Positions 2,770 to 50,500 of a DNA stretch of 64,000 bases are shown one piece after another (position 1 is the stretch's first letter; each line of letters opens with the position of its first letter). Location: positions 17,201 through 81,200 of the forward strand of contig JAKOGH010000662.1 in the NCBI GenBank assembly GCA_024811115.1, read 5' to 3'. The stretch comes from Terana coerulea. Taxonomy: Eukaryota; Basidiomycota; Agaricomycetes; Polyporales; Phanerochaetaceae. The position numbers and the translations under genes were made by a program. The notes beneath the pieces were generated by a model. It was not told where the DNA came from. It made no database searches and saw nothing but the letters and a program-made list of their open reading frames with translations.

Positions 2770-3198
2770 TAACAAAGATATGCGCAGATATCTGAGTTCG
2801 CAAGGGTCCGGCTCGCAAGGCGGACGCGCGTGAGGCTAACAGACGGACGGTCAGTCCGAAGCTCAGAGTATGGGAAAGTCTCTGGTGTATGTATTCACCT
2901 AACAGACGGACGGTCAGTCCGAACTACAGCAGTATGTGAGTACATGACGTGTCCGTGAGAACGAAGGGCTACGCACGCTCAGAGTATGGGAAAGTCTCTG
3001 AGAGTGCTCGAACGGAGAGAGTGGGTATATAAGAGAGTGATCGGTTGCTCGTAGCGAGCCTAGAAATTAAGGGACAGGGACGGAGAACGAGTCAGGGGGT
3101 AAACGAAACAAGTCCGTACTAGGGAATCGATAGACCTTGTGGCGCTGATGCGCCGATGCGCCAGGGCGTCTATGCGCACTCAGTCTCCAACTTCGACA
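2770..3198 (-). repeat. 3' LTR of the Copia element (left copy on + strand)
   Basis: 429 bp, matching the copy at 7720-8148 throughout by eye. It contains a 23-bp block with a CGGAC...GTCCG inverted motif present twice (about 2837 and 2900), and a repeated block resembling CAGAGTATGGGAAAGTCTCT. A possible TATA-like GTATATAAG lies on the + strand near 3024. A polypurine tract, GAAGGGGAG on the minus strand (about 3199-3207), abuts the inner end and overlaps the gag-pol stop codon. Confidence 0.93.
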
Positions 3199-3205
3199 CT
3201 CCCCT

Positions 3206-6200
3206 TCAAGCCTTTGCGAGGCCTAAGGCAGAAGCGAAGTGCTTGGCCTTCATCGAAGGGAGCGCCTTCGTAAGGGTATCAGCGACCATATCGTCGGTAG
3301 GGCAGTAGACGACGGTGAGGTTCTTGTGGTCGATGTGGTAGCGAATGAAATGAAAACGAATGTCGATATGTTTAGTGCGAGAGTGGAAGCGGTCGTCCTT
3401 GGCTAGGGCGATGGCGCTTTGGTTGTCCGAATAGAGCGTCGTCGCGTCGGAGGGCATGAGCCAGACCTCAGTGAGGTAGCTGCGCAGCCAGAGCGCCTCC
3501 TTCGCAGCATGTGCGAGAGCGACATACTCGGCCTCAGAAGTCGACTGTGCCACAATTTCCTGTCGTTTCGACGACCAGGAAACGGCACCGCCGATGAGGA
3601 AAGCATAGCCTGAGATGGCCTGACGTCCTTCGGTACTCATACCGTCGGCGTCGGAGTAGCCAACCAAGGGCTCGCTGCTATCACCTCCAAGAGTGAGAGC
3701 GAAGTCGCGCGTGCCCTTGAGGTACAGCGTAGACGCGACGGAGCTGGTTCCAGTGGTGCATACCCGGGTTCTCCGAGTAGCGCGCGAGCTGAGAGACGGC
3801 GTACGAGATGTCGGGTCGAGTAGCGACTGCGGCATACATGAGCGCGCCAAGTGCCTGACGATAGGGCTTATGACGCATGGCGGCAACCTCCTCCGGGGTG
3901 GACGCACAGTCATCCTTGGACAACTGCACATGCGGGTCCATCGGGATAGCGAGCGGCTTGATGTCCTCGAAACCGTACCGACTGATGATCTGGTCGATGT
4001 AAGCACGTTGAGAGAACGAAATCGTACGCTTCTCAAGGTCACGAGTGATGGCCATACCAAGCAGCCAGCGAAGATCCTCGAGTGGCGTCGCCTGGACGTG
4101 CGAGTCGATCTTGTTGCTCATGTGCTGGAGAATCTTTGCCTCTGGAGCAATGAGAGTGAGGTCGTCAACGTGGGCAGAGATGATGGCGATATGCCCGCCA
4201 GGAAGGTGCCGAAAGAATACGGCGTGGTCGTGTTCGAACGAGTAAGACCGCAGTCGGCCATAATCCCGCTGAAGGACCAAAGCCCAGCGTCGGCCTGCCT
4301 GCTTCAACCCATAGAGCGCAACCTTGAGACGAAGGACTTGACCAGGCCTGATGCCTTTGAGGGTCACAGCCGGCGGCGGACGCATGTAGATGATCTCGTC
4401 GGGCTTCAGTCGCCCATAGAGGAAAGCCGATCGGATGTCTTTCTGGCCCAAGAAGTAACTGAGTCGAGCGGCCAGAGCTGCGTTCGCACGCTGCGAAGAC
4501 ATCTTCGCCACCGGAGCGAAGGTATCGTCTGAGAAGAAGTCGATTCCCTCGACTTGAGTGAATCCTTGTGCAACGAGACGTGCGCGGAAGGCTGAAATAG
4601 CGCTCAGCGCATCGAGCTTCGCCTTGTAGACCCAGCGAGAGCCAATGACATTCGCGCCATCAGGGAGGATCAGCGTACTCCCAGGAATCGCGAGACAGGA
4701 GTCGAGAGACCTCGTCATCCATAGCGTCCTGCCACTGAGGTGCGTACTGACCGCGAAGAGCTTCCTGGTGTGTTCGGGGATCGAGACCTAGCATCTCAGA
4801 GTGAGCTGCTTCAAGGTTCGCCTCCAGGACGTGAACATCCTCGTTGACTTCATCGCCAGAGATCGCTGTACCACCCTGCAGAGTGCGAATTCTCGCCCGA
4901 GCGGCGAAGGGGTGGGGAAGGGTCAAAGGATTTAGGCGAAGGCCGAGGAGTGTCATCGTTATCAGAGTTCTGCTCCTTGACTGAAATGTCGTCGCGTGCA
5001 TCGTCCGGGACGTTGTCAAGACTATAATCCTCCCCCTCAAGGAGTGGAACCTCCTGAGACGAGAAGGTGACATCGCGCTCGACTGAGATCTTGCGCTGAG
5101 ACGGCCAGTAGACGCGATAGCCATTCGACGTCGAATCGAAGCCAAGCCAACGGCACTCGACTGCACGCGCATCGATCTTGCTCGCGTCCTTGAGCTTGAC
5201 GAAGCAGATTGACCCAAAGGGGTGCGCGTCGGACAGATCGGGCTTCTTCCGAAGCGGCGCTCGAAGGGCGTAGCGAAATCGATCCCAGAATGGGGAGTAC
5301 GATTGAAAAGCCAGACGGCATGCTGCATAGCCTCGCCCCAGAGTGTGCGAGGCAAGCCCGACGAGATGAGGAGGGCGCGGACAATGTTCAGGATCGTACC
5401 GTGAGTTCGCTCGGCGGAGCCATTGTGCTGAGGCGTGTCGTGCACCGTAAGCCGCTGGACTGTACCCTGACGCGTGAGATGGTCGAGGAAGTCGGTCCCA
5501 GTAAACTCGCCACCAGCGGTCCGACTGGACAGCCTTGATCTTCACGCCATGCTGCGTGTAAAGACGGGCCTCGTAGCCGACGTACTTCGCGAAGGCTTCA
5601 TCCTTGGTGCGAAGTAAAGGCTGCTCGAGCCAGAGCGTGGCGTCGTCGAGCATGGTGAGCGAGTACCGGCAGTGGCTAGTCGTCTGAACAGGGGCAGGAC
5701 CCCAGACGTCCATGTGGATGCGGTCGCCAAAGTTCTCGCAGCGCTGAGAGGACCGATGTGGAGCGACGGGCTTGCGCACTGCCTTAGCACGCATGCAGAC
5801 AGTACACTCCCCTTCAAGCTGCTGCTCGGAATCGACCTCGATGCCCGCAAAGGAGCCTGCCTTGATCATCTTTCGCAAATATGTGAAAGAGGCGTGCCCG
5901 AGACGCTGGTGCAGCTCCATAAGCGAAACCTGCGGCAAGACGGCTGCAGAGTTTGCCTCATCGTGGTAGACGCGGTAGAGGCCTCGGACCTTCGGGATCG
6001 AACAGATCACCGCACCAGAACGTCGAGTGACTTGACAGTGGCCGTCACCAATACGCATGATGAGACCGGCATCGTCGAAACGACCAAGGGAGACGAGGGT
6101 GGCGGACATGTCGGGGGCGTACAGTACGTCCTTGAGAAGGATCTCAACGAAGGCATCGCCCTTCGGAGCTACGATCTTCATGTCGCCTAGACCACAGGCA

Positions 6201-7306
6201 GAGAAAGACGTCTTGCCTGCAGCGCGCACAGAGCGCTCGGGAATTTCGCGAAAATTCGACAGCATATGCCGGAAGGGGGACATATGATTCGTAGCACCGG
6301 AGTCGTAGATTTCGACCACCGTGTCGTACGTCGAGGCAAGCGCGTCGTCAATAGACTCGTCGGCGGCGGCCCAGCCCTCGTCGTAGACTTCGGCTATCTT
6401 CGCAGAGGCTGCTGGCGAAGACTTCGCAGCAGGTGTCGTCCCAGACGACGTCGAAGAGTTCCCTTGCGCAGAATGCGCACTCTCCGAGTACTTCTTCTTC
6501 GACGGGCATACATTAGCCCGGTGCCCTTTCCCAGAGCACTTGAAGCAAGTAACGTTGTCGTCAGATGACGACGACGATTTCGCACCTCCTCCGCCATTCG
6601 ACTTCCCTCCCCGCTGACCCTTGCCCTTGCCCTTGGCCTTCCATCGGGAATCCACCGCGATAGAGGCTTCGTCCTTCGGCTTAGAGCTCGAGCGAGCGAC
6701 AGTCGAGCGAGACTGAGCTTCAGCACGCAACAGCGGCATGAGCTCTGTGGAAAGGACGGTGCGAGGGGTGATAGGGTTCTGGGAGTTGTAGATGGTGATG
6801 GCGGCTTCATAGGCGGTGACGATATGTTTGAAGGATGTGGGGACGGACGAGATGAGAGCGTCCGTGAAGGTCCTATCCTCGAGAGTGATGCCGGCCTCCG
6901 CGATCTCCTCCTTCAGCTGAACGAGGCGATCGAGGTGCTCTTGCATCTTCTTGTCGTTTTCGCAGGTCAGCGAAAACAAGCGCTTCTGGGCGTTCGCCTC
7001 AGAAGTGGCGGTGGACTGCCCAAAGCGGACCTTCATCGCTGAGATGACGTCCTTCGGAACCTTCACCGTGGATGCGATGTTCATGAAAATCGAATCAGGG
7101 AGCTTGCTGACGAGTGCCGCCAGCAAGGCATTCCCCTCAGCCTCCTTGTCCGCAGGGACGACGGCATCGGTCAGCAGAGTCTTCGACGCTGAGCCAAGCG
7201 CAGCGAAGTTGACCCGCTGGATCCACGTCCGATAATTCGTTCCGTCCGCCTTCAGCGAAGGGACGGACGAGAACGCCTTCTGGATGGTGTCGGCAGCGCT
7301 CGGCAT
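3206..7306 (-). pseudogene. Copia gag-pol polyprotein with several frameshifts
   Basis: The likely start is the ATG at 7306-7304 (MPSAADTIQK); the frame is open further upstream to 7591. Order in element sense: UBN2-type gag; CCHC zinc knuckle CFKCSGKGHRANVC (about 6500-6545); protease DSGATNHMS (about 6270-6305); GAG-pre-integrase; integrase core (PQHNGSAERTHG near 5420); reverse transcriptase with ALYGLKQAGR (about 4290-4320) and active-site HVDDLTLIA (about 4150-4175); RNase H (STSEAEYVAL, then DNQSAIALAK). The stop is at 3208-3206. Reading frame is lost near 5515 (one extra base), 5247 (one base short), 4900, 4665 and 3765, so no single frame encodes the polyprotein. Either a defective copy was mobilised in trans or these are base-call indels. 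Confidence 0.9.
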
Positions 7307-7706
7307 GTCGACGGAAGTGGGCGTGAGCGCGTGGGACAGGGGCTGGGTTCGATTGAGAGGATGAGGACGGCGTAGGACTCGGAAGAGAAGCGCGTTGCCG
7401 TGCGATCCGGTGGACCTGTTCTGGAGCGATGGGAGCGGCCCAGGGTTCGTCACAGGCACCGAGAGGACGGTTTTCGCGGTTGGGGCAAGGTTGCTCCGGG
7501 CAGGCGATCCAATGAACGTCGAGTTCGGGGTCTGGATCGTACCAACGATCGGTGACGTCGGTCTTGTCGAAGACGTGCGAGGCGTTGTCACAGGGATGCT
7601 GCAAGCCGGTGCGGCGACTGGACATACGCCGGAGGGGGTGGGAACGAAAGGAGTGTGTGAGAGACCACCAGGTGAGCGAGAGTAGACGTCGATGTCAAAA
7701 CCTCTC

Positions 7707-7719
7707 GGGGCTCATAACC
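7707..7719 (-). other. Primer-binding site matching the initiator-tRNA-Met anticodon arm
   Basis: The + strand reads GGGGCTCATAACC directly next to the LTR. This resembles the anticodon stem-loop of fungal initiator tRNA-Met (GGGCTCATAACCC, known from yeast), not the tRNA 3' CCA end. It fits priming by a 5' half-tRNA, as described for Drosophila copia. The match is seen in the sequence; the mechanism is inferred. Confidence 0.75.
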
Positions 7720-8148
7720 TAACAAAGATATGCGCAGATATCTGAGTTCGCAAGGGTCCGGCTCGCAAGGCGGACGCGCGTGAGGCTAACAGACGGACGG
7801 TCAGTCCGAAGCTCAGAGTATGGGAAAGTCTCTGGTGTATGTATTCACCTAACAGACGGACGGTCAGTCCGAACTACAGCAGTATGTGAGTACATGACGT
7901 GTCCGTGAGAACGAAGGGCTACGCACGCTCAGAGTATGGGAAAGTCTCTGAGAGTGCTCGAACGGAGAGAGTGGGTATATAAGAGAGTGATCGGTTGCTC
8001 GTAGCGAGCCTAGAAATTAAGGGACAGGGACGGAGAACGAGTCAGGGGGTAAACGAAACAAGTCCGTACTAGGGAATCGATAGACCTTGTGGCGCTGATG
8101 CGCCGATGCGCCAGGGCGTCTATGCGCACTCAGTCTCCAACTTCGACA
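7720..8148 (-). repeat. 5' LTR of the Copia element (right copy on + strand)
   Basis: 429 bp, same sequence as 2770-3198. In element orientation this is the promoter-bearing 5' LTR, and the primer-binding site lies directly inside it. The outer edge abuts the CAGGC duplication at 8149-8153. Confidence 0.93.
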
Positions 8149-10097
8149 CAGGCAAGGGAACCGTCATCAGGAAGCAGGCCTTGGCTCTATACTCGGAAGA
8201 TATTGAGGAACTGTAAGTGTAGTCTTCGTTCATATTCCAATGCTTACTGACTTGCGGTGTAGATACAAATCTGTAGGACAAAGTATTGATCAAGGCGACG
8301 TAGCACCTCCCAAGTCATGGAAGATCGCGGACTTGGAGCCCTGGTTGGCAGAACGCGCGGCCTCTATCACTTGTCGGCCCGTCCCTTCTCCAACCGCGAA
8401 TTTATTTGAGCACGGCTTTGATAGGTAGGTGATCGTATGACTTGACCCGGCGCCGTTCTGACAGTCTGAATTGTAGTCTGAGTGCAACATTTTTCCGCAA
8501 TCGCATTATTGGCGCACTCAGAGCTTCTACTGAAGTGAGCGTCGCAAATGCGGCGGGGCGGATAACACAGAATTTGGTGTATGAACATTTGACCATCCGG
8601 CGGCTGGCGGCTGGAATCGCTCAACTGGTCGCACCCTCAGAAAGCTCCGGCGACCCTCTCGCCTCTATTTCTACTCGGATCGAAGACGTCCAGGAGGTAG
8701 TAACAAAGTATTGTGCAGGAATACACCACGTACACAGGTCTTCTTTCCCTTCAACCATCTTCAATCTCGGCCCGACCGTTCTTGTGACTGGCACTACGGG
8801 CAACATTGGATCTCATATACTTGCCGCTCTGCTATCCGGTCCTGCTATCGGTCACGTCTACGCTCTTAATCGCCCTTCTTCCGATCCTATGCGGCGACTC
8901 AAGACATCATTCCGCGACCGCGGTTTGCCGGATATCCTACTGAACAGCCCGAAGTTCACCTTACTCACCGGGAATGTGGCTGAGAGCACTTTTGGTTTGC
9001 CGGCGGCTCAATTCAACGAAGTACGCTTAGTACGAAGACATACATTGGTCATCCTGACACTCGCTGTTCGTAGGTTCTCGGCTTGCTTACCCATATTATT
9101 CACAATGCTTGGACTGTGAACTTCAACCTTCCGCTCAATGCATACCAGGACCAGATTGCGGGGATCCGATCGCTGCTCGAGGTCTCCGCCTCGGTCAACC
9201 CGTCTGTCAGAATCTTCTTCACCTCTTCCATCGGAGTCGCTAGCCTCTGGGACCCTTCAAACGGACCTGTGCCGGAGTACCCATTGTCAGATCCTGGGAC
9301 CGCAATTAGTACAGGGTACTCTGCGTCTAAATATGTCGTCGAGAAGGTACGTCTTTCAGGAAATATATAGGCTGAGGATCCCTTCTTACCTATATCACAG
9401 ATGCTAGAATACGCAAGAGCCCAAGGTCTCACTACTGTAATAGTGAGAATGGGCCAAGCGTGTGGCTCTCTAGGTACGGGGGCTTGGGGCACAACAGAAT
9501 GGCTTCCGATAATGGTGAAATCCGGTCTCGTACTCGGCTCTCTGCCCGATCTCTCTGGGGTAAGCGTCGAACACCAGTCTCCGCCAACCTTGGCGACTGA
9601 CTCACGACATCTTTAGCTAGTTTCGTGGGTACCGTTGGATGCGGTCGGCCGAACGTATGTCGACTTGGTGCTGTTGAAGGATAACCCGCCGCTCCTCGTA
9701 AACCTAGTACATCCCCATCCAACGACATGGGAAATCGTACTCCAGGGCATCGTCGAGGAGCTGAACGGACGACTGACCATTGTACCTTCCGAGGAATGGT
9801 TCGACAAGCTTGAGCGATTATCTGTGACGGCCACAGAGCAAGATCTGGCTCAAATTGTACGTTCTGCAGCCGCCGTCTAGTCGCGTCTCATCATACTGAT
9901 GCTCATTCTAGCCGGCCTTACGACTACTCCATTTCTTCCGCGGCGTTGCGAGCTCTTCTACTGCTAAGCTCTTTTACGAGACGTCCAAGTTAGAGGAGTC
10001 CGCTCCAACAATGCACGACCTACCCTCCCTCTCAGCTGAGTACGGCAGAAAGTGGGTACGATACTGGAAGTCAATAGGGTACATAGGACTGGACTAG

Positions 10098-17184: not shown

Positions 17185-18257
17185 TCACTTCTGTGCCTCC
17201 TGTCACCTTCATATATTTTATGAAGCTTACACTTCTTTACCAAGTGACACTGTTCTATAACACTGAATAATACTGAAGTAGTCAGTAGCAATCTGATCGT
17301 CAAAATCCTGACTGACAATGAACTGACCTGCCAATTGACAACTAAGTGACAACCAAGTGACAGCTAACTGACGCCTAACTGACAGTTGAGGAAATCCACA
17401 CTGATAAAGCAAAGAATGACTTGTGGAGCATAAATGACACACATAACATCAACCAATCAACATACAGACAAGCAATGCCCCCTCCACTTAACATTAAGTT
17501 ACTTACAGACACAACATTAACAGACCGCAAATCACTGACAGCAAACCCTGACATGTCATATGAATGACATTCAAATGGCACATGATAGCAATGCTCTCCT
17601 TTGACAGCCAAACCAGTTTGTCTAATGGTCCTCAATTGTAGCTATGCCAATGAAGCTACAGATGGGGACCACATGTCTGTTTGACTCTTTAGTGGCTACA
17701 TTGAGTTGCAACTGAACCTTCATTTCAGCTCCATGTGGCTGCTACAAAGTCATGCAGCTTATGAGGTATGCACTGCAAATATGCAAGCATAATTATTTCT
17801 ACGTCTCAAATAAGGTAGCAAGGAACATATGAACATGAGGCCGTTCTCATTTCAGATAATCTATCATAGCTTATTTGAAAGCTTTGTTGGCATAATGCTA
17901 ATACTGTTTCGGATAATCTCCAGCTAAGTCCTGAATAAGTTAGGGATTAGTCTCACATAATCTGAAGTAGATCCCCTCAGTCTAATCTAATGCTCATTTG
18001 AATAATCTTTGCTCTCACCTCACATAATCTATAACTGATTTTGTGATGCTTATTGTGACAGCCTGTAACAATCTGTTACTGATAACCTTCAGATAGACTT
18101 GCTCACTTTATTTGAAATAAGATTGCCATCTGCTTCACTTATTCTTTTCTGAAACTTGCTGATCATAACTAAGAGGGTTTCAGAGATTTTCAGAAAGGTT
18201 ATTTAAAATACTCTTCAATTATTGCTCACATAAGCCAGCATCTTTTATTATAAATAA
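17185..18257 (-). repeat. Right inverted arm of the 3.5-kb element
   Basis: About 1,073 bp, the inverted copy of the left arm. Some internal segments (about 17500-17700) are longer than in the left arm, so one arm has gained or lost sequence. Confidence 0.7.
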
Positions 18258-30026: not shown

Positions 30027-30793
30027 TATCAAAATAAGGTCTTAGGGACAGCGTGGGCACTGCGCATAACGTCAAGGACGGTAAAGATGATGGTGAGCAG
30101 CACCCGAGAGGGTGCAAACACGTAAGGGATAGGTATAAGTATCATTCATATATAAAAATTATGGCACCAAAGTAACAAAAGCCTTCAATTCCGCACTGAC
30201 TCACCTGGGGCGTGTCCCTCTGCAGTATGTAGTATAAGTATATTTACTGACCTCTCTTCGATTTACCCGCCCCCGCGAATTTGTATCACGGATTCCGGGT
30301 CATTCTATCCTTGCTGATCCACACCACAGTCCGTCTTACTCGTCCTAACCCTCGCAGCCTCTGCTGATGTCTGGCATTCCAGTCAGGCCCGCCCGCTTCT
30401 ATCATTTTTGGGCAAGTACTTACTCATCTCCTACGCTTTCTGGTGCATATATGTACCAACTGAATCTCACCAGTTTTACAGGCAGCGGCACTGCTTTATG
30501 TATTTAGTTTATTTCAGCCGCAGTCATGGTGTTAGTATACAGCTGTAGTCGTAGTAAGTACTAGCGCTTTGCAGCCGGCGCCCTCACTGCCGGCACCCTC
30601 GCAGCCGGCACCCTCATATACGTAGCAGGCGCCCTCACCCAATGTCACCTTAACCCAACGCCAAGCTGGGCCACTCCCCGGAGCGAAGCGAAGGCACCTC
30701 TGTGTGAGTGACTTATATATGCTACGAGTGGTGTCCAGGTGCAGTAAGCATAGTGACGGTACCTTAATAACACTAAAGTACCAAAATCCGACA
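30027..30793 (-). repeat. Solo LTR of the 205-bp LTR family, split by a 561-bp insertion
   Basis: The halves 30027-30142 and 30704-30793 together match the 205-bp LTRs at 37648 and 38811. Flanks TCTAT (30022-30026) and CCTAT (30794-30798) fit a 5-bp duplication with one mismatch. The intervening 30143-30703 is not part of the LTR. It includes four imperfect copies of a GCCGGC(A/G)CCCTC motif (about 30572-30640). I could not find a duplication for the inner insertion. Confidence 0.78.
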
Positions 30794-36651: not shown

Positions 36652-36691
36652 ATAGTTCACTTCTCTCCGTGTGTTTCACATTGAACTGTAA

Positions 36692-37359
36692 TAGTGTTGC
36701 CGAAGTTCAGTTCAGTTCGGTTCGGGTCCATTTTTGTCCGAACCAGAACCAGAACCAAGTGTTTAGCAGCCGAACCTGAACTGAACTGAACTGAACCAGT
36801 ATGAACTGGTTCGGTTGGTTCAGTTCAGGGTTCGAACTGGTTCGAACCATTGAACCATGTATATATCAGCTTTACTCTGTCAAATCAGTATAATTGCAAT
36901 GGTAGATTATAATAGAGTTATATATTGACATCTAGAAGAGTTTGTATAGTGCAAAAGCCTTACATTATGATGTTTTGAAGCTCAGTGTCTGATAGAGGCT
37001 GCCAGTTGCCTTTTTGGCAGCTATTGATGGCATCATATATACACCAAAACATAAGCAGAGTGACATTTGATGCTCAGTTTACAAGCACAACAATGAAAAA
37101 ATAGTTTAGACATGCTATAGTAAGTAAGTTCATGTACTTTTCTCATGAATCCCAGTACAAATACACTACATAACATATACATGGTTCACGGTTCGAACCG
37201 GTTCGAACTTGGTTCAGAGCGTGACAGCCATGCCCCGAACCAAGAACCGAACCAAGTTATCTAGAGGCCGAACCAGAACCGAACCAAACTGAACCACACG
37301 GTTCGGTTCATCGGTTCTGGTTCTGAACCGCCGAACTGAACTGAACTTCGGCAACACTA
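36692..37359. mobile_element. hAT-type MITE, copy 1, two bases upstream of the NRPS-like copy 2 start codon
   Basis: 668 bp with TIRs TAGTGTTGCCGAAGTTCAG and an exact 8-bp duplication AACTGTAA at 36684-36691 and 37360-37367. Subterminal regions are packed with GAACC/GGTTC/TTCAG short repeats in both orientations. There is no coding capacity. A second copy in opposite orientation lies at 46183-46847. Confidence 0.92.
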
Positions 37360-37647
37360 AACTGTAAGGATGGCCGCGCCCATTCTGCCTCCTCTCAATG
37401 GAACACTCTACTCTAACCGAATTTGCCGATTTTCGAACGAACACAACCCGGATTTCCGTTCTATGTGTTCCCTTCCCCAAGATCCCGCTGAAAGTGGTGA
37501 TAGTCTCGTATTCAGCCATGGTTCAAGCTAGTCATCGAGTTGCGCACATTCTGCAACCAGGTCGCCGAGGACCCGAAGGGAAGTTATTGCCGTTTTGCTG
37601 CACACCAATACTATCTTGTACGGCGCTGTCCTTCTTAGTATTATGAG

Positions 37648-37852
37648 TATCAAAATAAGGTCTTGGGGACGGCGCGGGCACTCGCGCATAACGTCGAGGA
37701 CGGTAAAGATGATGGTGAGCAGCACCCGAGAGGGTGCAAACGCGTGAGGATAGGTACAAGTATGTAAGTGACTTATATACACTATGAGTGGTGTCCGGTG
37801 CAGTAAGCATAGTGACGGTACCTTAATAACACTAAAGTACCAAAATCTGACA
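37648..37852 (-). repeat. 3' LTR of the TRIM-like element
   Basis: 205 bp. It differs from the right copy by one inserted base near 37681 and one missing base near 37798. Confidence 0.88.
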
Positions 37853-38810
37853 CTCCCTTCAAGCCCCTGCAGTGAGAAGACGAGCTGTAGAGGCTTGCAG
37901 TGAAAGAACAAGAGAGCAAGGGTAAAGGGAGATATAAAAGAATGAATGTGGATATGGTGTTCAATGGATATGTGCGAAGCAAGACTTGGGGACATGGACG
38001 AGACGAAGGTGACAAATGGGGGTAAACAAAAACTCAATCCAACTGAGAACGTCACGAGGGCAAAACCGAACGCGCATCCGAACACATCGGATGGCGCACC
38101 AAATCGCGCGAGTACTCCGACTCCAGCGCGTGCATCAAGCCAACACTTGGCGATGCTGGTCACCCAATCCAGGGGACGGCGGCACGCATGCCGTGCACAA
38201 CAGCGCTTCGCCCTCGCGAAGGGGAGCCTGTTTGCGTCTGCACCTTGATACAACCAGGAGTATCCAACTCCTAACCCTAGACCATATACTTGTACACCAA
38301 TCGCAGATGGCGCTCTTGAAGGCGCGCGAGTGCTTGCGGAAGGACGCACGGATGAACGAACAAGGATGCCGACAGTCGGGATATCAGCGACAGCGTCGGT
38401 GTCGAGTCCTCTTCAGGACACTGATCGGATAGGCGGTGACGGCGGCGGGACAGCTCAGCGCATGAGCGTCGACGAAAGCACGATGGGCCGCGAGATCAAC
38501 TCGACCGAATGACGACGGGAGTGGCGCAGGCAGGCATGGCTGCCAGCGCGGATGAACGGATAGAGCTCAGGCCAGGAACGGCTAGCGAAGCGATGAGCTG
38601 ATTCGGGCGCAGCGAAGCGCCGAGAGTCGCAGAGGGCGGCGTCGGCCGACGACGACGCAAAGTCGTACGAGGGTGTGGTCGACAGCGAGAGCGACGTGGG
38701 GAATAGCGACGGGGCCATAGAATGAACGAGAGGTCCCCAAGAGTGCCGGTCGAAGGGGTAAGAGACCGACGGGCGGCTTTGGTGCCGGGAGCCAACCGGA
38801 GACGCGTTTG

Positions 38811-39015
38811 TATCAAAATAAGGTCTTGGGGACGGCGCGGGCACTGCGCATAACGTCGAGGACGGTAAAGATGATGGTGAGCAGCACCCGAGAGGGTGCA
38901 AACGCGTGAGGATAGGTACAAGTATGTAAGTGACTTATATACACTATGAGTGGTGTCCAGGTGCAGTAAGCATAGTGACGGTACCTTAATAACACTAAAG
39001 TACCAAAATCTGACA
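38811..39015 (-). repeat. 5' LTR of the TRIM-like element
   Basis: 205 bp, start TGTCAGATTTTGG and end CTTATTTTGATA in element sense. Confidence 0.88.
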
Positions 39016-39145
39016 ATGAGGGCTAGACTTCGCTTACCTGTACCGTTCGCGAAATTCACTGGTCCTTGGTTCCCTAACGGGAAGGTCCGGGCCGGACCTC
39101 CGAAGGACGTGAGCTTCGCGAACGGACTGGGATATCCTGGGCCCT

Positions 39146-39213
39146 AAACCAAGACCCTCCCTTTAGCGCCTGCCAAGACTGCAGATGCGTCGGACTTAGC
39201 AAAATCGCACGAG
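39146..39213 (+). repeat. Left internal inverted repeat of the DUF6589 element
   Basis: Contains AAACCAAGACCCTCC and GCAGATGCGTCGGACTTAGC. It is matched in inverse orientation at 47449-47515 with about four differences. Confidence 0.88.
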
Positions 39214-39297
39214 TTGCTCTCTGTCAATAGAGAGGTCATCCCTCCCATACATATATACTGCCTCAGCTTGTAATTATATCTGGTTCATGTATATAAA

Positions 39298-42200
39298 TCA
39301 GTCCATGTCAAAATCAACGTCATCCCAAGTATCCAGACTGAACACATCTTCATGCTCGAGGAGCTTGTCCCAGTAATTGTCATTGTACACCGGATCCTCG
39401 TCTTCGTCATCGAGTATGCTGACTTCTGAGGTAGAGCCCGAGTCAAAGACGAAGACGGCGAAGGTACATCACTTGCGCCATTCTCCGAGCTGCGAGAGCC
39501 TGACCCAGCGTTTTTAGTTGCTATCAGCAACAGCCACTGTCTCCGAGCCGGCATTGGCTGAGGGCTGGCGAGAGGTTGCCGCAATGGTGTGTGCAAACGC
39601 CAATACCGGAGTTGGAGAGAGAGTCGTCCGAAGTTGTTGAGGGGCCAACAGGCGCAGGAATAGCACCAGCCTGCGAGCCTAGGGCTGTGTCGCCGCCGGA
39701 TGATTGAGTTTGCACTTGGCCAAGAGCTGCAACGTTGGCCTGCGTAAGGGTTTCCCAATGAGTGGCGTGAGCTTCCGTCGGTCGAAGTCGCGCGAACAAA
39801 GCATTGTACTCGCGCAATGGACCGGTGAGATCAATCGACCCTTGCAGGAGCGCGTCGGAAACGGCTGCCTTCTCCAAGCCCTCGATGGTGCGCCCGGGAT
39901 CCACCACGTAGACACGACGTTCTTCCAGCGACTTGAGCAGGTGGGTGATATCCTCAGATATGTCCGGGGAATGGTGTTTCTTGCCTTGTGCGGAGCCGAG
40001 CGTGGCATGCATCTGTTCTGAAAGCTGTCGAAGGATTGTCACACACGGTGACAGCATGCGAAGCCAGTCCCATGACGCGCCGCTGCCTTGTGCTTGATAC
40101 ACGGTCTATTCCCAAGGTTGGTACGTGATTTTTAAAAAAGAGACAGCAAGCCACCGGCGTACTTTGATCCATCGGTTCATATGTTCTTGAAGTAAGTCAA
40201 CAGGGATAAAGCCGTTCGGTCGTCCTGTGGTATTCACCAGCCAATTGTTGAGAATGATGCGCCTGATAGAACTACAAATGAGCGACCATAGACAGCGTGA
40301 GAACGAAGCGACACGTACGGGAGAGGCTTTGGCCATACATGCGTGAGATTGTGCAGCAAGTGCAGCATCTCATACGCATATTTGGACTTCCCGGTGCCAC
40401 GGTAATATAGTGCGAGGACCTTGATCATAAGGACGATGCGCCCAGAGTCGCCAGACTTGATGGCATCCTGGAACTCCCGTACAAGAAGAGCGTCCCGGTT
40501 GAAGAGAACTGCGTTCTCGAACACCATATCCCCCGCGTATACACTACCTCATCCCCATCCTCGAAAGCAGCCTTTGGCCGAGCACCTAGCACGGTCAGCG
40601 GACGTCTCCATCATTTCGCGTCTCTCCCCTCTCGCTCTCCACGAAGCTTCTCAACGACCTCCGAGCTTGCATATCGGTCGAGGATGCGTTCGGCGTCGGC
40701 CTGTAGCTCCTCGAAGGTAGCCGTTGCCGCATACAAGTCGAGATCCTTGCCGCTGACGAGTTCTAAGCAGTGAATAAGGCGCGCATACAGCGAGACTAGA
40801 GAGAGGTCGCGGCAGGTACGATAGGGTGGTAACGAGGACAGAACGATGGGTTTACGGTCGAGAACGACGTTGTGGTGCGTTAAGGATCCTGGGTCCCGTG
40901 GGCCGAGATGAGGGTTGCCCCAGTGAGTAGCCAAAGTCCGAACACGCAGTGCATCTGACCGTGGAATAGGCCAGGCGAGAATGCGAGGTTGAGGTAGGAG
41001 TTTTGGGGCTGTCGTGGCCAACGCGATTCATGAGGATGGAGCGGCAGCGAGAGAGAGTCAACTGGTCACCGCAGACAAGGCGAACCGTGTCCCAGGCTTG
41101 CTGTGAGTACCCGAGCTCCTTGAAAATCGCCTCCAGGACCTCAGCATTCCCTGTGATAGAGCTTTCGTCAATATCCATCGCAGGCAGAGTGTAAACATCC
41201 GTCTGGTGCACGGAAATCTTCTCCGGAGTTTCTGGCTTTGTCTTGTCCACGTCGGCCTTGAAGCGAGCGAACCGATCGCCACCGTTGGAGACTATAGACC
41301 GGATTATTGTGTGTACAAGGCATTTTCGTAAGAGGTTGTTCTCGTCCGGCGTGAGGTCTATATCTGAAACGCTCAAAGGTGGTGCAGCGTCGTGGGCATC
41401 CAGGAGATCCTGCGTCTTCATGTCCTCCTTGCGCGCATCGTACAAAGGGAAGATAGTCGCGCATGTCCCGTTCTCCTGTGCGTCCTTTCGTCCTAAGATC
41501 TGTTCAGCGGCCTTCGAGACAATGTTGATATTGTCATAGACATGCTGGCACATGTACGTCCTTGCGATACGGCCCGTTGTACTGCGTCTAGCTGAACATA
41601 CCCGTTGAATAATTCCAAGGCCTACACCGCCAAGCAAAGGAGTTCCGGCAAGCCGCGTCGCTGTGGTAGAGGTGGTCGAAGACGCGTCGATCTGAGATCC
41701 GGGCGCGTCTTGCTTGACGCGCTTCAGCATTGTGATGAGCGGCTCGTCGTCGCTCTCACTTCCTCCTTCCTCACCCTCCTCTGGCCGAACTCTCTCCATG
41801 TCATCGTCATCGCTGCTATCACTACCGGCCTCCTCATCAGAGCGCTGTAGGCCATCGTCTTCCATGCTGTCCTCTGCACCGGCGTATTTCCGACTTCCAC
41901 TGCCGACAATGGACGACCAGCTGCTGGCCAAGCCCAAGCTATTGAGGACGGAGATAGTCTGGCGCTGCGCACCGCTGGTGTACAGGTAAAGCGCGGTGAT
42001 ATGTTTGAAGTAGCTATTGGCTTGACTCCGTTCTCCGAGTAGGTTCAGCAATGCCGCAGCAAGACGCTAATTAACCAACCAAAGCTCATCAGCAACTGTA
42101 TGAGGCATAAGAGGTAAAACATACCTTCATCTTGCGCTGCAAGCTTTCCGTTGTTTGCTCACGTATTTGGCGGGCAGTTGTGCAAAATGCTTCAAGCACC

Positions 42201-43188
42201 GGGACCATTGTTGGGCAGAAGCCCAAAATCTCGGTGTACAAGGTCGACAAGTCAAACTTCTGAACGAAGGATTCATCGACCGGCATTCTGCGAGACTGTA
42301 GAAAGCCTGACCGCGTTACTCGGTTTCCTTCGGAGTTGACCTTTCTTGTGATGTATGACATGACCCACTCGTGCACGGTACGTCGTGCTGTCTTGCTATT
42401 AGCGCCATGAGGTCCAGTGCCCGAGAACGCGGTGAACGCGTTCGGGCTGGTCGAAGAAGCCATAGTATCGAATTTTGCCTTGGTTATTCTTGGGATCAGA
42501 GACGTACTCGAGGAGGTCTCCCCACGTGAGGCCTCTGTTTTGAGATACTGCATAGCACCGTCTAACCCTTCGACGTCTAGGGTTGTTAATCTGAACTGGG
42601 AGGCTGGCGTTTGAGCTGGTGCAGTGTTCGGAATGGCACCAACAGGTCCTCCACTACCACCGAGATCATCGTCTTCGAAGTACGGCAGCTCTTGCATGCC
42701 TTCGCCATGCTGGAGCTCATCATCTGGCAAACCGGAATACCAGGCATACCGGGAGGTACGTCGAACTGAGGGATAGGAGATGCAGCCTGCGCGCTGACAG
42801 CGTCCTTCTTCCGTCTAGGCTTCTTGCCCGTTGTTCCAGCCGCCGCCTTCAACTTCTTGACCCGTTCCTGCTGCCCAAGTTCTTTTCGCATCTGTTTCCG
42901 CGTATTTGGTAAACCTCGAATGCACACTGTGGGCTCAGGTCCATCACTGGATGGCTCTCGCAAGCTGTATGCCTCGTTATTGATTCCGGTTTATAGTAGG
43001 TGTCCTCGGGGTAACAGATGGGTCAACCCTTAGTGGGAATGGACCTGACGGAAGGCGGCTGGCAAAGGGGCTGCTTCTTGGTCCTGGCAGGGTAACGAGC
43101 CTGAGGCTGGTGGTGAACTAAGGGGTGAAGAGAATTGTTCAAGGGAGCGGGGTCTTGGAATTATAGGTGGGTCTGGATCTTCCTCCAT
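39298..43188 (-). CDS. DUF6589-family protein (candidate transposase), some frameshifts
   Basis: Read on the minus strand from ATG 43188 (MEEDPDPPIIPRPRSLEQF). A Pro/Ser-rich N-terminus is followed by a Lys/Arg-rich stretch with GKKPRRKKD and the DUF6589 core: VYDNINIVSKAAEQILGR (about 41545-41490), QENGTCATIFPLYDA, VCGDQLTLSRCRSI (about 41085-41045), THHNVVLDRKPI (about 40880-40845), DMVFENAVLFNRDAL (about 40530-40485), YAYEMLHLLHNLTHVWPKP and NNWLVNTTGRPNGFIPVDL. The C-terminus is very acidic (DDEDEDP, then DVDFDMD) and stops at 39300-39298. DUF6589 proteins are abundant and multi-copy in basidiomycetes; function is not established. Conserved Asp in YDN and GDQ would fit an RNase H-like transposase core, but that is my inference. 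Frame breaks near 41005 and 40925, plus an unresolved exon junction near 42730, indicate damage or base-call indels. Confidence 0.8.
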
Positions 43189-43370
43189 GGTAAACAATTG
43201 CTCAAGCGTTGGACTGGTGTAGAGGTTGATGTATTGTATAGCAAGTATGCAGAGAACGTAGTGGTCGTTGCGGTAGAGTTTAATTTGCAAGCGCGTGCGC
43301 CGTATAATGACTCTTGACTGTGTACGCTCGCGATCTTAACTCTTCCACAACCTCACCTCTGCTTCACGTC
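43189..43370. promoter_or_regulatory. 182-bp bidirectional promoter between DUF6589 and helicase genes
   Basis: The two start codons (43188 minus, 43371 plus) are only 182 bp apart and face away from each other, so both promoters and 5' leaders must lie here. TATA-like GTATAATG is near 43301. The head-to-head arrangement implies co-expression of the two element genes. Confidence 0.6.
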
Positions 43371-45662
43371 ATGGTTCGGGCACACTCGCAGAAAAAAAAG
43401 AAAGTGGTCACTGGACCAAAGTCTCACAAAGGGATGCCAGCCGGCAGAGCTTCAATTCAGCCGAAGGATGCTGAGGTTACAAGGCTCGCTGAGAAAATGC
43501 GCAATGGTTTCGTCCACCGTGCTGAGCCAAAGCCATTCCAGATAGTGGGTACAAAGGCGCAAATTGAGGGCCAGGACATTATCCTGCAGGCATCAACTGG
43601 AGCAGGGAAGACTGCGCTTCTGGCAGGACCACACCGCTGGTTCAAAAGAAGTACACCATCATGGTGGTTCCGCTTATGTCCTTGGAAGATGAAATGGTGT
43701 GTTACCTTGCCTTCCTGGCCCGCTTGCCTCTTCTGAGCATATATTAGGTTAAGACGATAAAGGACGACTTCGGCTTGGACGCCATAGCCATTCATAGCAA
43801 GAATGGGGGCTGACTCGTGCAAAGATCGAGGTGCGCAAAGATGTCAGTCTGGTATCTGCATCGAGGCTGACCGCTTTACCTCTCTCATAGGCTATTCTGC
43901 AAGGGAAGTATGATGTCATCATCGTCTCTCCCGAAATGGCCCAAACAAAGAAGTTTATCAATGAGCTCCTTCGGAACCCCCAGTTCTCGGGGAAGGTCTT
44001 GTCTTTATTCATCGACGAAGCGCACACAATGTCGCATTGGGGTGCCGATTTCGCAAGAAGTTGGGCACGTTGGGTATCCTTCGGGCATTCCTTCCTGAAG
44101 GTACTCCTGTCGCCGCCGTCTCCGCCACACTGACACCTCGCGTTCGACGAGACATCCAGTCGAAGATGCAGTTTCCCAAATCTGGAAGCCTGTTCCTTAA
44201 CATCGGTAACGACCGCCCCAATATTTCCATTGTCGTGCGCGCGTTCCACAGCCCGATGAACTCATTCCTTGACCTTGACTTTGTCGTTCCGCTATCAGCG
44301 ACGGATGTCAGCCAGGTGCCGAAGACATGGATCTATATTGACAACATCTCGGTGGGAAACGACATAGTCGACTATCTGGCAAACCTCTTTCGCACTCGTT
44401 TCACCGAACATCAAGGTGACAGTGCTTCGGCCCTCGCAGTCGAAAACGCCGTGCGCCCCCTTCAACGCATCTCTTTCTCACGAGTACCGCACTGCTGCCA
44501 TGGAGCATTTTCGCAGCGGCGCCATTCGGGTTCTTGTCTGCACAGATGCAGCGGGTATGGTGAGTCATCTGACAGAATGACAACGGGCTTCACTGTCTGA
44601 CTCAGTATCATAGGGGTCAATATACCAGGCATCAAGGTCGTTGTGCAGTTCAAGCTTCCTGCTACACTGTCCAACTTTGTTCAGCGCGCGGGACGTGCGG
44701 CGCGCGGTCCTAACGAAGTCGGTCTCGCCGTTTTGCTGGTGGAACCTTCAGCGTATACTACCAATCTGTTTACAACAACACCGAAGGCAAAGACAGCTGG
44801 GACGGAGGGGCAAGAAACGACAGGCAGTGAAGAAGGACAACGAGAATAAGGAGCAGAAGCCAGCGGTGTCAGCTAAGGTGGCAAAGGCGTATGCGCGGGC
44901 GCATGGGCGGGAACGTGGTGGTAACAGCAAAAAGATGCCGTTCCTACCGGTGAGCAACCTCCTTTTGACCCGGAGGCTCTCGACGAAGGGCTGCTACTCT
45001 TTGCTCAAAGTACAACGTGTCGCCGGCATATATGGGCCAAGATGTTCGACAATGACCCGTCCAAGCTAGGTGTGTACTGGTTGAAATGCCACTCAGTATG
45101 AATCTAATTATGATTGAACTAGTGCATCTGCCCAACGTACCATGCTGTGATGTGTGTGATATCACACTACTGAATCGAACACGCCCAGCTGCGGCCAGCA
45201 TTGTACCAGGCACGGAAGGCAAAGGTCCGCCGAAAGGAATTCTAATCCCAAGCACGCGAGCTAAACTCGAGGAATGGCGGAAGAAGGTTTACAACCGCGA
45301 CTATCCGTCATCATTCCTCATGACGGCAGCTACTATCCTGGATGATGATCTTGTCCGCTTGCTATCGTCTGTTGGCCCGCTTACGTTTGCCAAGCTCAAA
45401 CTGCTCTTAGAGGCCCGGTGGACACGTTGGAACAAGTACAGCGACGAGCTTCATCAGTTCCTCCAAACTCTCGAGCTCACGCTTTGTCCCGCTCCCCAAA
45501 AAACCAGCCAAACCGAAGGCCGCCGGCGTAAAGGCAACATTATCAGCTAACGCGAAGAGTACTGATTCTGCAAAGACGAAGAGCACGAAGTCTGCGAAGA
45601 CGAAGAGTACAGACTCGGACTCTGCGAAGACAGTGACCTCCAAACTCCAAGCGCAGCACTAG
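43371..45662 (+). CDS. RecQ-like superfamily 2 DNA helicase, element-encoded
   Basis: Starts MVRAHSQKKKKVV at 43371. Motifs: Q-like PFQIVGTKAQIEGQDIILQA; Walker A ASTGAGKTA (about 43588-43614); DEAH in LFIDEAHTMSHWGADF (about 44005-44055); motif III VSATLT (about 44116-44133); then a second RecA domain with YRTAAMEHFRSGAIRVLVCTD (about 44485-44545), GMGVNIPGIK and QRAGRAARGPNEVGLAVLLV (about 44683-44742), the RecQ motif VI. The C-terminus has a Cys-rich patch (VPCCDVCD, about 45135) and ends with a Lys/Ser repeat tail (KST-SAK units) in a shifted frame to 45660-45662. Several exons need introns or small frame corrections (near 43620-43760, 44430-44465, 44800 and 45490). Helicases of this type recur beside DUF6589 genes in basidiomycete genomes as far as I recall. 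A role in strand unwinding during transposition is inferred. Confidence 0.8.
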
Positions 45663-46174
45663 GGCAAACGGCAACGCATCTGTGGTGATGGAACCCGCAC
45701 CTGGCGCTGCACCATCACACACCTCAGCATTCGCTCCAGCCGAGTCGCAAGCTGGTCCTTCCCATTCCCTCCCGGCACCGCTGAACAAGACAGCCAGTTT
45801 CCCACGTCCAGACGCCATTAACATCCCATGACATGAGCTACATGCCGCCGGCTGATACTTACCTTTACCAGCCGACTGTCACCTCCTCACATCCGAATTC
45901 TATGTCCCTTGCAACCCCGTACGCGCTTCATCATATGCGCACCCATCGACATACACCCATCAGACGTGCACCCATCAATCCTGGCCAGGGGTAGCGGCGA
46001 AATACCCACCTACTCTTCTATGGTACCCGATACACGCTTGACTGGGCCCGCGCGTGCAGTACCCGCCGTCACCTCAAGGTTGCTAAACGACGGTCCGAGT
46101 CAACACTGGTCATTACCGCTACAATACAACGCGAATCCTTGGACGACGTCGACTTCAATGGCGCCAATCGCTCC
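45663..46174. other. 3' flank of helicase, low-complexity frames
   Basis: Frames rich in Pro/Ser/His/Tyr (for example MSYMPPADTYLYQP near 45836) might continue towards the ORF at 47030 if the MITE is removed. Not established. Confidence 0.35.
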
Positions 46175-46182
46175 TTCAAGAA

Positions 46183-46847
46183 TAGTGTTGCCGAAGTTCA
46201 GTTCAGTTCGGCGGTTCAGAACCAGAACCGATGAACCGAACCGTGTGGTTCAGTTTGGTTCGGTTCTGGTTCGGCCTCTAGATAACTTGGTTCGGTTCTT
46301 GGTTCGGGGCATGGCTGTCACGCTCGAACCAAGTTCGAACCGGTTCGAACCGTGAACCATGTATATGTTATGTAGTGTATTTGTACTGGGATTCATAGAG
46401 AAAAGTACATGAACTTACTTACTATAGCATGTCTAAACTATTTTTTCATTGTTGTGCTTGTAAACTGAGCATCAAATGTCACTCTGCTTATGTTTTGGTG
46501 TATATATGATGCCATCAATAGCTGCCAAAAAGGCAACTGGCAGCCTCTATCAGACACTGAGCTTCAAAACATCATAATGTAAGGCTTTTGCACTATACAA
46601 ACTCTTCTAGATGTCAATATATAACTCTATTATAATCTACCATTGCAATTATACTGATTTGACAGAGTAAAGCTGATATATACATGGTTCAATGGTTCGA
46701 ACCAGTTCGAACCCTGAACTGAACCAACCGAACCAGCTCATACTGGTTCAGTTCAGTTCAGTTCAGGTTCGGCTGCTAAACACTTGGTTCTGGTTGGTTC
46801 GGACAAAATGGACCCGAACCGAACTGAACTGAACTTCGGCAACACTA
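46183..46847. mobile_element. hAT-type MITE, copy 2, inside the DUF6589 element
   Basis: 665 bp, inverse orientation to 36692-37359 and highly similar. TIRs begin TAGTGTTGCCG and the exact 8-bp duplication is TTCAAGAA (46175-46182 and 46848-46855). No coding capacity. Confidence 0.92.
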
Positions 46848-47029
46848 TTCAAGAACATCATCTGCACATGGATTTGTGACGCCCCTAGCCTCAACTTCCT
46901 TTGACCTAGCTCATACTCAACCAGAGCCGAGTGGCCGCGGGAATATGCCTTCCACTGTGTTCCTGCCTCCCACACACCACAGCGAACACCGTCCCTTCAC
47001 TGTAAGCACTGTCCTCCTTTCCGCAACAT

Positions 47030-47350
47030 ATGGCTGACTTTGTGTATTCTCAGGACATTGCTGTTCCAACACCGACATCATATGAGTACGCTCCTTACCA
47101 TGCAGCCACTCCTTCCACCTACTACCCGAACCTTGCACCTGTACCACATACCACCTATGACCGCCTACCACCATCTCACGACTTCCCGCATACCACCACA
47201 CATCACGTCACACGTCAGGTACCTTCACATGCTCCTCAGCATTCCAGTTTTCAGCCGCCTCCGCCGATGTCCACGTCCATGTCCTTTCCGCATGCTCAAA
47301 ACTGGCCATATACATCTGAGTATTCCACAGAACAGAACAAATCCCTATAG
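47030..47350 (+). CDS. Small Pro/Tyr/His/Thr-rich ORF in the DUF6589 element
   Basis: 106 codons from ATG 47030 to the stop at 47348-47350. The sequence is a low-complexity mixture (for example PTPTSYEYAPYHAATPSTYY) without a fold signature. It may be the last exon of a disordered protein whose earlier part lies at 45830-46180, on the far side of the MITE, or an independent small protein. No homologue recognised. Confidence 0.4.
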   Translation: MADFVYSQDIAVPTPTSYEYAPYHAATPSTYYPNLAPVPHTTYDRLPPSHDFPHTTTHHVTRQVPSHAPQHSSFQPPPPMSTSMSFPHAQNWPYTSEYSTEQNKSL

Positions 47351-47448
47351 CTGATACTCATTTATGACTATGTATCCAATATATTACATTTTCTTTGGTG
47401 ACCTAGTGCTCGTCCTGGATGCCTACTTGATTTTGTCTGAAAAGCGAC

Positions 47449-47515
47449 CTCGCGCGATTTCGCTAAGTCCGACGCATCTGCACTCTTGGCAGGCGCTAAA
47501 GGAGGGTCTTGGTTT
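47449..47515 (-). repeat. Right internal inverted repeat of the DUF6589 element
   Basis: Inverse copy of 39146-39213. About 80 bp of weaker, GC-rich terminal homology (GGTCCGG / CCGTAGCGG motifs) lies outside it. Confidence 0.88.
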
Positions 47516-50500
47516 GGCGACGAATTATCCCAGCCGCTTCGGTGACCCGCAGCCCCCTCCGGTCCGGTGGCCCGTAGCGGCAGGGAACGAGCCTAAATGA
47601 GGGCCGGCATGGTGGTCTGTATTCATTTTATTGCGTCCATTCGAAAAGAAAGAAAAACTCTAAAAATCATTCGCAGCCATATCCTGTACTCTCCCGCATG
47701 TCGCCGGGAGCTATATGCGCTATGCTAGAAGCAGCATCCTGCCGTCGTATAATCACTCAAGAGGCTCTGCAACCTCTTGCGTCGGCGGTCCAATCCGCAA
47801 TGTCGGATAAGGGCGTAGAGATCCAGATGGAGGACCTTCCAGCCTTGTATACTGTGTTCCCTCATCTCGACAGTCATGAGTCGGGAGTGCCTTCAGCCCG
47901 GGTCGATGCACCGTACCCCTCGGAGGACACTCCGAAGGAAGACGGCGCACCGGAGCTTTATTTGCACTCCTCTGGATCTACTGGCATACCGAAGACTGTT
48001 CTGTTCACGAAGGAACGTTTGTGGGTCTGGCTTACTCAGCGTAAGTGACACTTCGGCAGGCCATCCCCAGAACAGTATCACTGACTGCCAGCTTCCATAG
48101 CGTTCTATGAAGGCTCACGCCGGAGGAGAGTTCGCTTTGGAGCTATGGGATTACCGAGCTCGCACATGATGGGCATTCTAGTCCAGCTGTGTTTCCCCTT
48201 GATAGGCTCCCAAGGGGTTGCCGTATATACGCCGAAATATCCTGCTCCACCAACCATCCTCGAGCCAAGAAGTTGCTACGAGGTCGCAAAGCTTACTGAA
48301 TGTACCGGGCTGTTTACAGTGCCCTCATGCTTGGAGGTAAGCTCGGAAGCAAAACCTGGTGTAGAAGCGGTCTGAAAATCTGCATTAGGCTTGGTCACAC
48401 TCCGCTGAAAGTATGGAGTACCTCAAGATGATGCATGTAGTGGTTCGTCTATTACTTGACTGCTTTTGTTCTCCATTGAAAAGTAATCAGTTGTTCGGAG
48501 GCGCGCCTCTGTCGTCCTCCGTAGGCAACAAGATGGTATCTGCCGGAGTCCCCATTCTTTCCGGCTATGCAGCGACCGAGTTTATGTCGCCCATCAAGAC
48601 ATGGGACGAAGATTCGGAATCTCTTGCACCATTGGAGCCAGATACAGACTGGGATTACATCCGCATGTCCCCAAGTGTGGCTGCACGGTGGGAGCCCCAG
48701 GGCGATGGCACATTCGAGCTTGTTGTGATTGTAAGTCCTCCTGCAGCTCAATCGCAACTACCAGACCTCATGTATCTCGAAAGGACAATGGAAAGCTAGG
48801 AATCGCAGCTTACAACGTCCCTGGAGAGAAGGCCTACGCTACGGCTGATATTTTCGAGCCACACCCTACGAGACAGGGACTATGGCGCTTGTGAGTCGCA
48901 ATGACGCCAGGTCCATTTAGCCTGCCGGATTGACTTGGACTATAGAGTAGGCCGCAAGGATGATGTGATTCCCATGAGCACAGGTAGGTCCATGCTTTTC
49001 CCTTGCACGACCCACCCTACCGAATATTATCCATGACGCAGGTGAAAAAATTGTTCCAATCCCGCAAGAGGGTCAGATCACAGCTAGTCCTCTGGTGAAA
49101 GGCTGTGTTATGTTTGGCAGAGGGCACGAACAACCTGGAGTGTTGGTTGAACCAATGGCTGAGAACGCCGCCGCAGCCGACGACCAAGAGGCACTCACGG
49201 CTTTCCGCAACAAGATTTGGTGCGTTCTTATGTCATGGCGGCGAGGCACTGACTCATCGAAATGCAGGGCGACAGTTGCAGAGGCGAATTCGCTTGCACC
49301 TGCGTTTGCCAGAATTTTTAAGGAGATGATCATTGTCACTGACCCTGCGAGGCCTTTGCCACGCGCGGGAAAGGCACAGTTATCAGAAAGCAGTCCCTAG
49401 AATTGTACTCGAGCGAGATCGAGGAACTGTACGTATGAAAATGACTTGCGTTGTAACAACCACTGACGTGCATCACAGATATAAGTCTGTTGAGCAAAGT
49501 CTGAACATGGGCGGCGGTTCACCTCCAAGATCATGGAATGCGACTGACTTGAAGGTCTGGCTGGCAGAGCATGCAGCCGCCATTGCTTCTCGACCCGTCC
49601 CACCGCCGAATGCAGATCTGTTTGAATATGGTTTCGATAGGTGCGTCTTTGAACCATGCTCTTGTACTAGTTCTTACTCTCAGTTGCGTAGTCTGGGTGC
49701 AACGTTCTTCCGCAACCGTGTCATTGGGGCTCTCAGAGCCTCGAGCGTGGCGTGCGTGGCACGTGCGGCAAGGGCATTACCTTCGAACCTGGTATACGAG
49801 AATCCGACAGTCGAACAGCTAGCAACTACAATCTCACGGCTGGTCGATCGTTCAGAGGATGCCCAGAGCTTCCTCACATCCACTGGTCCCCGAGTAGAAG
49901 AAATTCAGGAGCTCTTGTCCAGATACTGCTCGGAGCCTTTGCACATAAGCCGCTCTGTGATCGCAGGTACATCGAGCGAAGGGCCGGTCGTTTTAGTAAC
50001 CGGTGCGACAGGAAACTTAGGGTCCCATATACTTGCCTGTCTTCTCTCCAACTCCGCCGTCGCACATGTCTACGCACTTAATCGCCCCTCCTCTGACCCT
50101 ATTCAACGCCTTGAGTCATCGTTCCGCGATCGTGGCTTGCCGGAGATCCTTCTGCACAGCCCAAAGTTCACCTTGCTCGTCGGTGATGTTACCCAGACCA
50201 CATTAGGGCTTGCAACAGCTCAGTTCTCCAAGGTACGATTACACGTCAACTCACAGATGGCCGTGCTGACACACCCGAATTTTAGGTTTTCAGCTCACTG
50301 ACCCACATTATTCATAATGCCTGGACCGTCAATTTCAACCTCCCACTCAAGGCTTACGAGGATCAAATTGCGGGGCTCAGAAAGCTACTCGAGACGTGTG
50401 CATCAGCCAACTCATCTGTCAAGATTTTCTTTACGTCTTCGATTGGAGTCGCTAGCCTTTGGGACCCGTCAAATGGACCGGTACCCGAGGATCCCTTGCC

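Follow-up and report, generated by a model that had tools for sequence, protein, structure and literature searches.

What moves a large block of DNA that interrupts a gene of the basidiomycete Terana coerulea, and to which kind of transposon does it belong? The block lies in a stretch of 64,000 nucleotides (the window; contig JAKOGH010000662.1, C508 in our numbering, positions 17,201 to 81,200) and carries two genes, one for a protein of the DUF6589 family (PF20231) and one for a RecQ-like helicase of superfamily 2 (SF2). The window and the whole assembly (48.4 Mb, 896 contigs) were analysed. The results point, with a probability of roughly 0.74, to a decayed DNA transposon of the cut-and-paste type that most likely belongs to the AcademH lineage, with DUF6589 as its RNase H-fold DDE (Asp-Asp-Glu) transposase.

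The window element is a real transposon, present as a decayed copy. The imperfect terminal repeats and the near-perfect inner repeat described in the original prediction were both located in the sequence (Table 1). The genome was searched with each window end, and seven short elements with both ends were found, besides one locus (C117) with the left end alone and other partial matches. Because these seven copies have the same ends, the boundaries of the window element and its 9-bp target-site duplication AATGAGGGC could be fixed. The 8-bp duplication ATGAGGGC proposed earlier is contained in the 9-bp one, and the proposed mobile block of 8,573 bp is real, with its length corrected to 8,572 bp. 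The exact 9-bp duplication and the ends shared with the short copies uphold the earlier assignment to DNA transposons. The transposase gene has frame changes and the element carries a nested hAT-like insert, both unmentioned before; the window copy is thus probably dead.

The short copies are 1,477 to 2,378 bp long, and all seven have the ends TAG...CTA. Exact 9-bp duplications flank six of them and an 8-bp duplication the seventh. With the window element included, the duplication is 9 bp in 7 of 8 copies and TTAA in none. At C728 and C55, 11 flank bases match, two of them running into the TA, and the duplications were trimmed at TAG. Four copies (C728, C534, C604 and C55) contain segments with 75-81% identity to the window DUF6589 gene, chiefly to its last part, and C728 matches the DUF6589 Pfam domain itself. 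The short copies arose by internal deletion from a related element with DUF6589. C488 and C410 are 99.3% identical over 1,475 aligned bases, and C534 and C604 99.5% over 1,533 (gaps excluded), each copy in a different target; the family has thus moved recently. As the window copy looks dead, the enzyme for these recent moves presumably came from elsewhere. At C728 the left end occurs twice in tandem (contig positions ~28427 and ~28540), and the duplication suits the outer end.

The window DUF6589 gene matches PF20231 above the Pfam profile cut-off. Among the matches listed, its closest relatives come from Phlebia brevispora (~50% identity, blastx) and the named ones are Agaricomycetes. At three of the frame changes of the gene, near 42402, 41005 and 40937, the relatives continue ungapped (blastx). 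Public proteins were searched twice for DUF6589 relatives (E up to 0.001). The first alignment comprises 71 of the best 120 of at least 201 matches; the second comprises 79 of the best 120 of at least 323, and 7 sequences from the first search. The window gene ends in DVDFDMD-stop, resembling DVxLDMD near the C-terminus of the second consensus. Candidate catalytic residues D, D and E are kept in 70, 71 and 70 of 71 rows of the first alignment and in 84, 84 and 86 of 86 rows of the second. The Asp residues of YDN and GDQ had been named in the original prediction and are near-invariant; the Glu of YxxE had been overlooked. An invariant His lies in a GxxH motif (G486/H489 in the first alignment, G590/H593 in the second).

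Comparison of DUF6589 with RNase H-fold transposases had been called for at the outset, and was carried out on two AlphaFold models (predicted local distance difference test scores 87.9 and 84.4). DDE transposases outrank all other structural matches, the best being the hAT transposase Hermes; the nearest structures are Hermes, the P element, RAG1/Transib and ISCth4. In the Foldseek search of PDB transposases occupy ranks 1-7, yet with E of at least 0.038. By sequence, the DUF6589 profile has no match among solved structures (best E 0.86). In a viral structure library DUF6589 has no match under E 0.001, and in viral contigs none of 30 pattern-matching stretches was confirmed as a relative. PF20231 is the sole precomputed domain in the 240 listed DUF6589 relatives. 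Nine window open reading frames (ORFs), compared with Pfam at E up to 1, hold no other transposase family and no nuclease domain. The predicted fold supports the suggestion that DUF6589 may be a transposase, and on these models it is very probably an RNase H-fold DDE transposase with a predicted catalytic triad.

The second gene contains PF00270 (DEAD) and PF00271 (Helicase_C), and its best solved relative is RecQ 4tmu (E 2.1e-29; human RECQ1 ~1e-24). The Pfam domains and RecQ matches confirm the two divergent genes of the original prediction, DUF6589 on the minus strand and the helicase on the plus strand. The helicase shares its core with the RecQ family but, unlike a host repair gene, sits beside DUF6589 within inverted repeats. 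Of 10 DUF6589 loci in the genome, 7 have a helicase as neighbour (the window, C376, C366, C16, C282, C788 and C497), C788 and C497 giving the weakest single helicase matches; no helicase was found beside DUF6589 at C278, C400 or the deletion derivative C728. The same pairing is seen in public proteins, where 60 of the 120 listed helicase relatives share species and a contig of equal size with one of the 120 listed DUF6589 relatives (the best 120 of 466 and of at least 323 matches, respectively). Here a common contig was taken from equal size, and the species agreement of all 60 pairs was checked by eye. Spacing of the paired genes is known only from short contigs (12 of 60 below 100 kb) and from neighbouring gene names (NM688_g6203/g6204, NM688_g2307/g2309, EVJ58_g10195/g10196). 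With the DUF6589 list of another lineage as control, 1 of 120 was paired; the control is weak, as many of its contigs are metagenomic. Distances of the paired proteins are correlated (Mantel r 0.80), none of 2000 permutations coming near this value (maximum 0.12). DUF6589 and the helicase move and evolve jointly. This co-inheritance is established, as are the ends, the duplications and the derivative copies. The helicase, earlier viewed as an accessory, is a conserved partner both by the 7 loci and by the contig pairing.

The AcademH lineage of Academ was reportedly described by Kojima in 2020, in Mob DNA 11:15. In the available extracts of the literature, AcademH elements encode a helicase and have duplications of 9 or 10 bp, AcademX elements have a nuclease and duplications of 3 or 4 bp, and the difference in length is linked to helicase versus nuclease (PMC10045372). 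AcademH elements are given there as low-copy elements of Basidiomycota, Ascomycota and Mucoromycota (PMC10799480), and the Academ superfamily is listed with a DDD/E transposase (PMC9587614). The window element agrees with AcademH on all features compared, namely the helicase, the 9-bp duplication, a host in Basidiomycota and a predicted DDE transposase. From this likeness between described features, membership in AcademH is probable. In contrast to AcademX, the window family has 9-bp duplications and no nuclease domain in the nine ORFs. The original prediction knew of no named superfamily with this gene pair; this is doubtful in view of the extracts on AcademH. The element is likely not new in kind and fits a lineage already described, the useful result being the likely transposase function for DUF6589. 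No paper naming DUF6589 was found in a literature search with subscription papers and Repbase outside its scope, where the link may be known. During transposition, DUF6589 would recognise the terminal TAGnCT repeats, perhaps the inner repeats too, excise the element and insert it into a target, with the joining points staggered by 9 bp. Its RecQ-like partner would probably open the ends or the target, or aid gap repair.

Ends were also sought at eight other DUF6589 loci (C16, C376, C366, C497, C278, C282, C400 and C788). The terminal-repeat scan required ungapped agreement, at 11 bases within the first 20 or at 7 within the first 8. At C16, DUF6589 and the helicase lie between TAGTCT ends flanked by an exact duplication of 9 bp (repeat score 15; matches in 0 of 100 Markov resamples). 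The terminal repeat of C376 agrees at 17 of 20 bases and its duplication at 8 of 9 (matches in 10 of 100 resamples, 2 of 100 at a score of at least 15). C16 and C376 represent other DUF6589 lineages with the same kind of ends. No match was seen in 28 real decoy placements. The scan omits true elements, since the window element itself escaped its ungapped criterion. At C376 the element itself (1434-8971; score of this inner end pair 22) is enclosed by a further pair of TAGRCTCG ends (820-9148, score 14) with an 8-of-9 duplication. Perhaps it is nested in a short relative, or the outer pair arose by chance, which the 10 matches in 100 resamples make possible.

Two loci weigh against the AcademH assignment. 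At C366, 17 of 19 repeat bases agree (matches in 2 of 100 resamples), and no duplication was found. At C497 (24230-32400), inverted repeats of ~375 bp starting with TACGG, with a 7-bp duplication ATCATAC, enclose remnants of DUF6589 and the helicase, and a 7-bp duplication would be unusual for AcademH. The C497 ends resemble those of the IS3EU elements of rust fungi, for which the extract gives TAYGG..CCRTA and 6-bp duplications (PMC12730594), against 7 bp here. Ten ORFs of C497 hold no other recognised transposase, and its ends may be part of the DUF6589 unit or of a host element. Inverted repeats are long at C278 and short at C282, with no duplication at either locus, and the terminal-repeat search gave no clear ends at C400 and C788. 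At C278 (22579-31172) the DUF6589 fragment lies within a large inverted duplication with serial arms of up to 294 bp. DUF6589-helicase pairs lacking inverted repeats and duplications had been named as evidence against a mobile unit; within this genome the outcome is mixed, with exact ends and duplication at C16 and no duplication at C366.

The C497 locus, with its different ends and 7-bp duplication, favours a reading in which DUF6589 proteins serve as transposases for an unnamed DDE superfamily or lineage of their own across Agaricomycetes. Such transposases would be non-homologous to Academ, with a RecQ-like helicase, mostly TAGnCT ends and 9-bp duplications, TACGG ends and 7-bp duplications in at least one lineage, and a likeness to AcademH arising by convergence. 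That RecQ helicases can join unrelated transposases is indicated by KolobokH, as an extract presents it (PMC9587614). However, AcademH agrees with the window element in the helicase, the 9-bp duplication and the host range, and a separate superfamily is judged unlikely.

AcademH is also preferred to a hAT, MULE or Zisupton element that acquired a helicase by chance, which is improbable. Hermes is the top structural match, and MULE duplications are ~9 bp, so that duplication length alone would fit a MULE. Hermes, the P element, Transib/RAG1 and ISCth4, however, have no detectable sequence similarity to the DUF6589 profile and have other duplication lengths; to our knowledge none has a RecQ partner. 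The helicase is a stable partner and not a chance passenger. For hAT, an 8-bp duplication is given as the rule in the extract (PMC12730594), and for Zisupton 8 bp is likewise expected, against 9 bp in 7 of 8 copies. The absence of other transposase families from the nine ORFs extends to the MULE transposase domain, identified as PF10551 in an extract (PMC8290104), and the 240 relatives carry PF20231 alone.

Could DUF6589 and the helicase be cargo, for instance for silencing or repair, with the ends moved by another, unseen transposase? The short copies moved although none holds the whole DUF6589 gene, which means that the ends can be uncoupled from the enzyme, and the pair at C497 is enclosed by quite different ends. 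The predicted transposase fold and DDE conservation of DUF6589, the similar ends of C376 and C16, and the lack of another recognised transposase among the scanned ORFs make this a slim prospect. KolobokH is likewise a fungal lineage that carries a RecQ helicase, but is most improbable here. Kolobok duplicates TTAA according to the extract (PMC9587614), against duplications of 9 bp in 7 of 8 copies and TTAA in none, and the helicase is a separate gene on the opposite strand and not downstream of the transposase domain. In the same extract, C/DxxH between the second D and the last E is common to Kolobok, hAT, P, MuDR and Dada; the invariant His in the insertion of DUF6589, the one position compared, lies in GxxH.

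DUF6589 is annotated as a domain of unknown function, and many fungal gene models bearing it are called 'hypothetical protein'. As a helicase-linked transposase, it could be removed from host gene counts and masked by annotators, and its predicted catalytic triad would become testable. The tight co-inheritance of transposase and helicase likewise makes a role of the helicase in cut-and-paste transposition testable.

Table 1. Features of the window element and its surroundings, and duplications of the short copies.
Feature	Position	Strand	Details
Transposon copy	39024..47595	.	8,572 bp; from ends common to seven short copies
Left target-site duplication	39015..39023	.	AATGAGGGC, 9 bp
Right target-site duplication	47596..47604	.	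AATGAGGGC, 9 bp, exact
Left terminal inverted repeat	39024..39042	+	begins TAGACTTCGCTTACC; imperfect
Right terminal inverted repeat	47577..47595	-	begins TAGGCTCGTTCCCTG on - strand; imperfect
Palindromic arms within left end	39043-39059 / 39109-39125 (span 39043..39125)	.	17 bp
Inner inverted repeat, left arm	39146..39213	+	near-perfect
Inner inverted repeat, right arm	47449..47515	-	near-perfect
DUF6589 gene (PF20231)	39298..42963	-	broken by frame changes; start loosely placed
Candidate catalytic D1 codon	41533..41535	-	YDN
Candidate catalytic D2 codon	41065..41067	-	GDQ
Candidate catalytic E codon	40369..40371	-	YxxE, KYAYE
RecQ-like SF2 helicase, conserved part	43371..45517	+	true gene may extend further
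Helicase motifs	43599; 44014; 44121; 44679	+	GAGKT; DEAH; SATLT; QRAGRAAR
Later hAT-like insert, nested	46183..46848	.	duplication TTCAAGAA, 8 bp
Older small element bounded by long terminal repeats, adjoining left end	37648..39015	.	~1.37 kb; duplication ATGAG, 5 bp
Short copy C488			duplication AGGCCGCTG, 9 bp
Short copy C728			duplication CCATTTACG, 9 bp
Short copy C534			duplication ACCTGGGGT, 9 bp
Short copy C55			duplication CCATTCCAT, 9 bp
Short copy C410			duplication CTTGTTCCA, 9 bp
Short copy C133			duplication ATGATATGC, 9 bp
Short copy C604			duplication AATAGGGG, 8 bp

The target of the transposon is a gene resembling those for non-ribosomal peptide synthetases (NRPS), whose first exon starts at ~37370 and resumes at ~47601. 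The flanks, when joined, read LLSIM-RAGMVV and align with the paralogue at 735-1484, which reads LLGIL-RAGMVV and is unbroken there. The insertion thus lies in a coding exon whose paralogue is intact at the site, as first described. The remainder of the host exon also shifts frame upstream, and the host gene was therefore probably already decaying. The small element adjoining the left end, absent from the original prediction, is bounded by two long terminal repeats (LTRs) of ~206 bp that are 99% identical. It inserted first, and the transposon second, at its right junction; the transposon duplication thus takes its first A from the LTR end and its remaining bases from the gene. The small element looks non-coding and resembles a terminal-repeat retrotransposon in miniature (TRIM), with relatives at 30027-30142 and 30703-30793.

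The hAT-like insert nested in the transposon is a miniature inverted-repeat transposable element (MITE) of a family of ~670 bp with ends TAGTGTTGCC, and a second copy lies at 36691-37359 with the 8-bp duplication AACTGTAA. Among 156 genome candidates 40 were scored, with identities of 93-99%, so the family is young and numerous. Both NRPS-like paralogues of the window (735-9286 and ~37370-50500) are interrupted by mobile elements, in the former apparently by a Ty1/copia-like element whose ORFs lie at 3206-7591.
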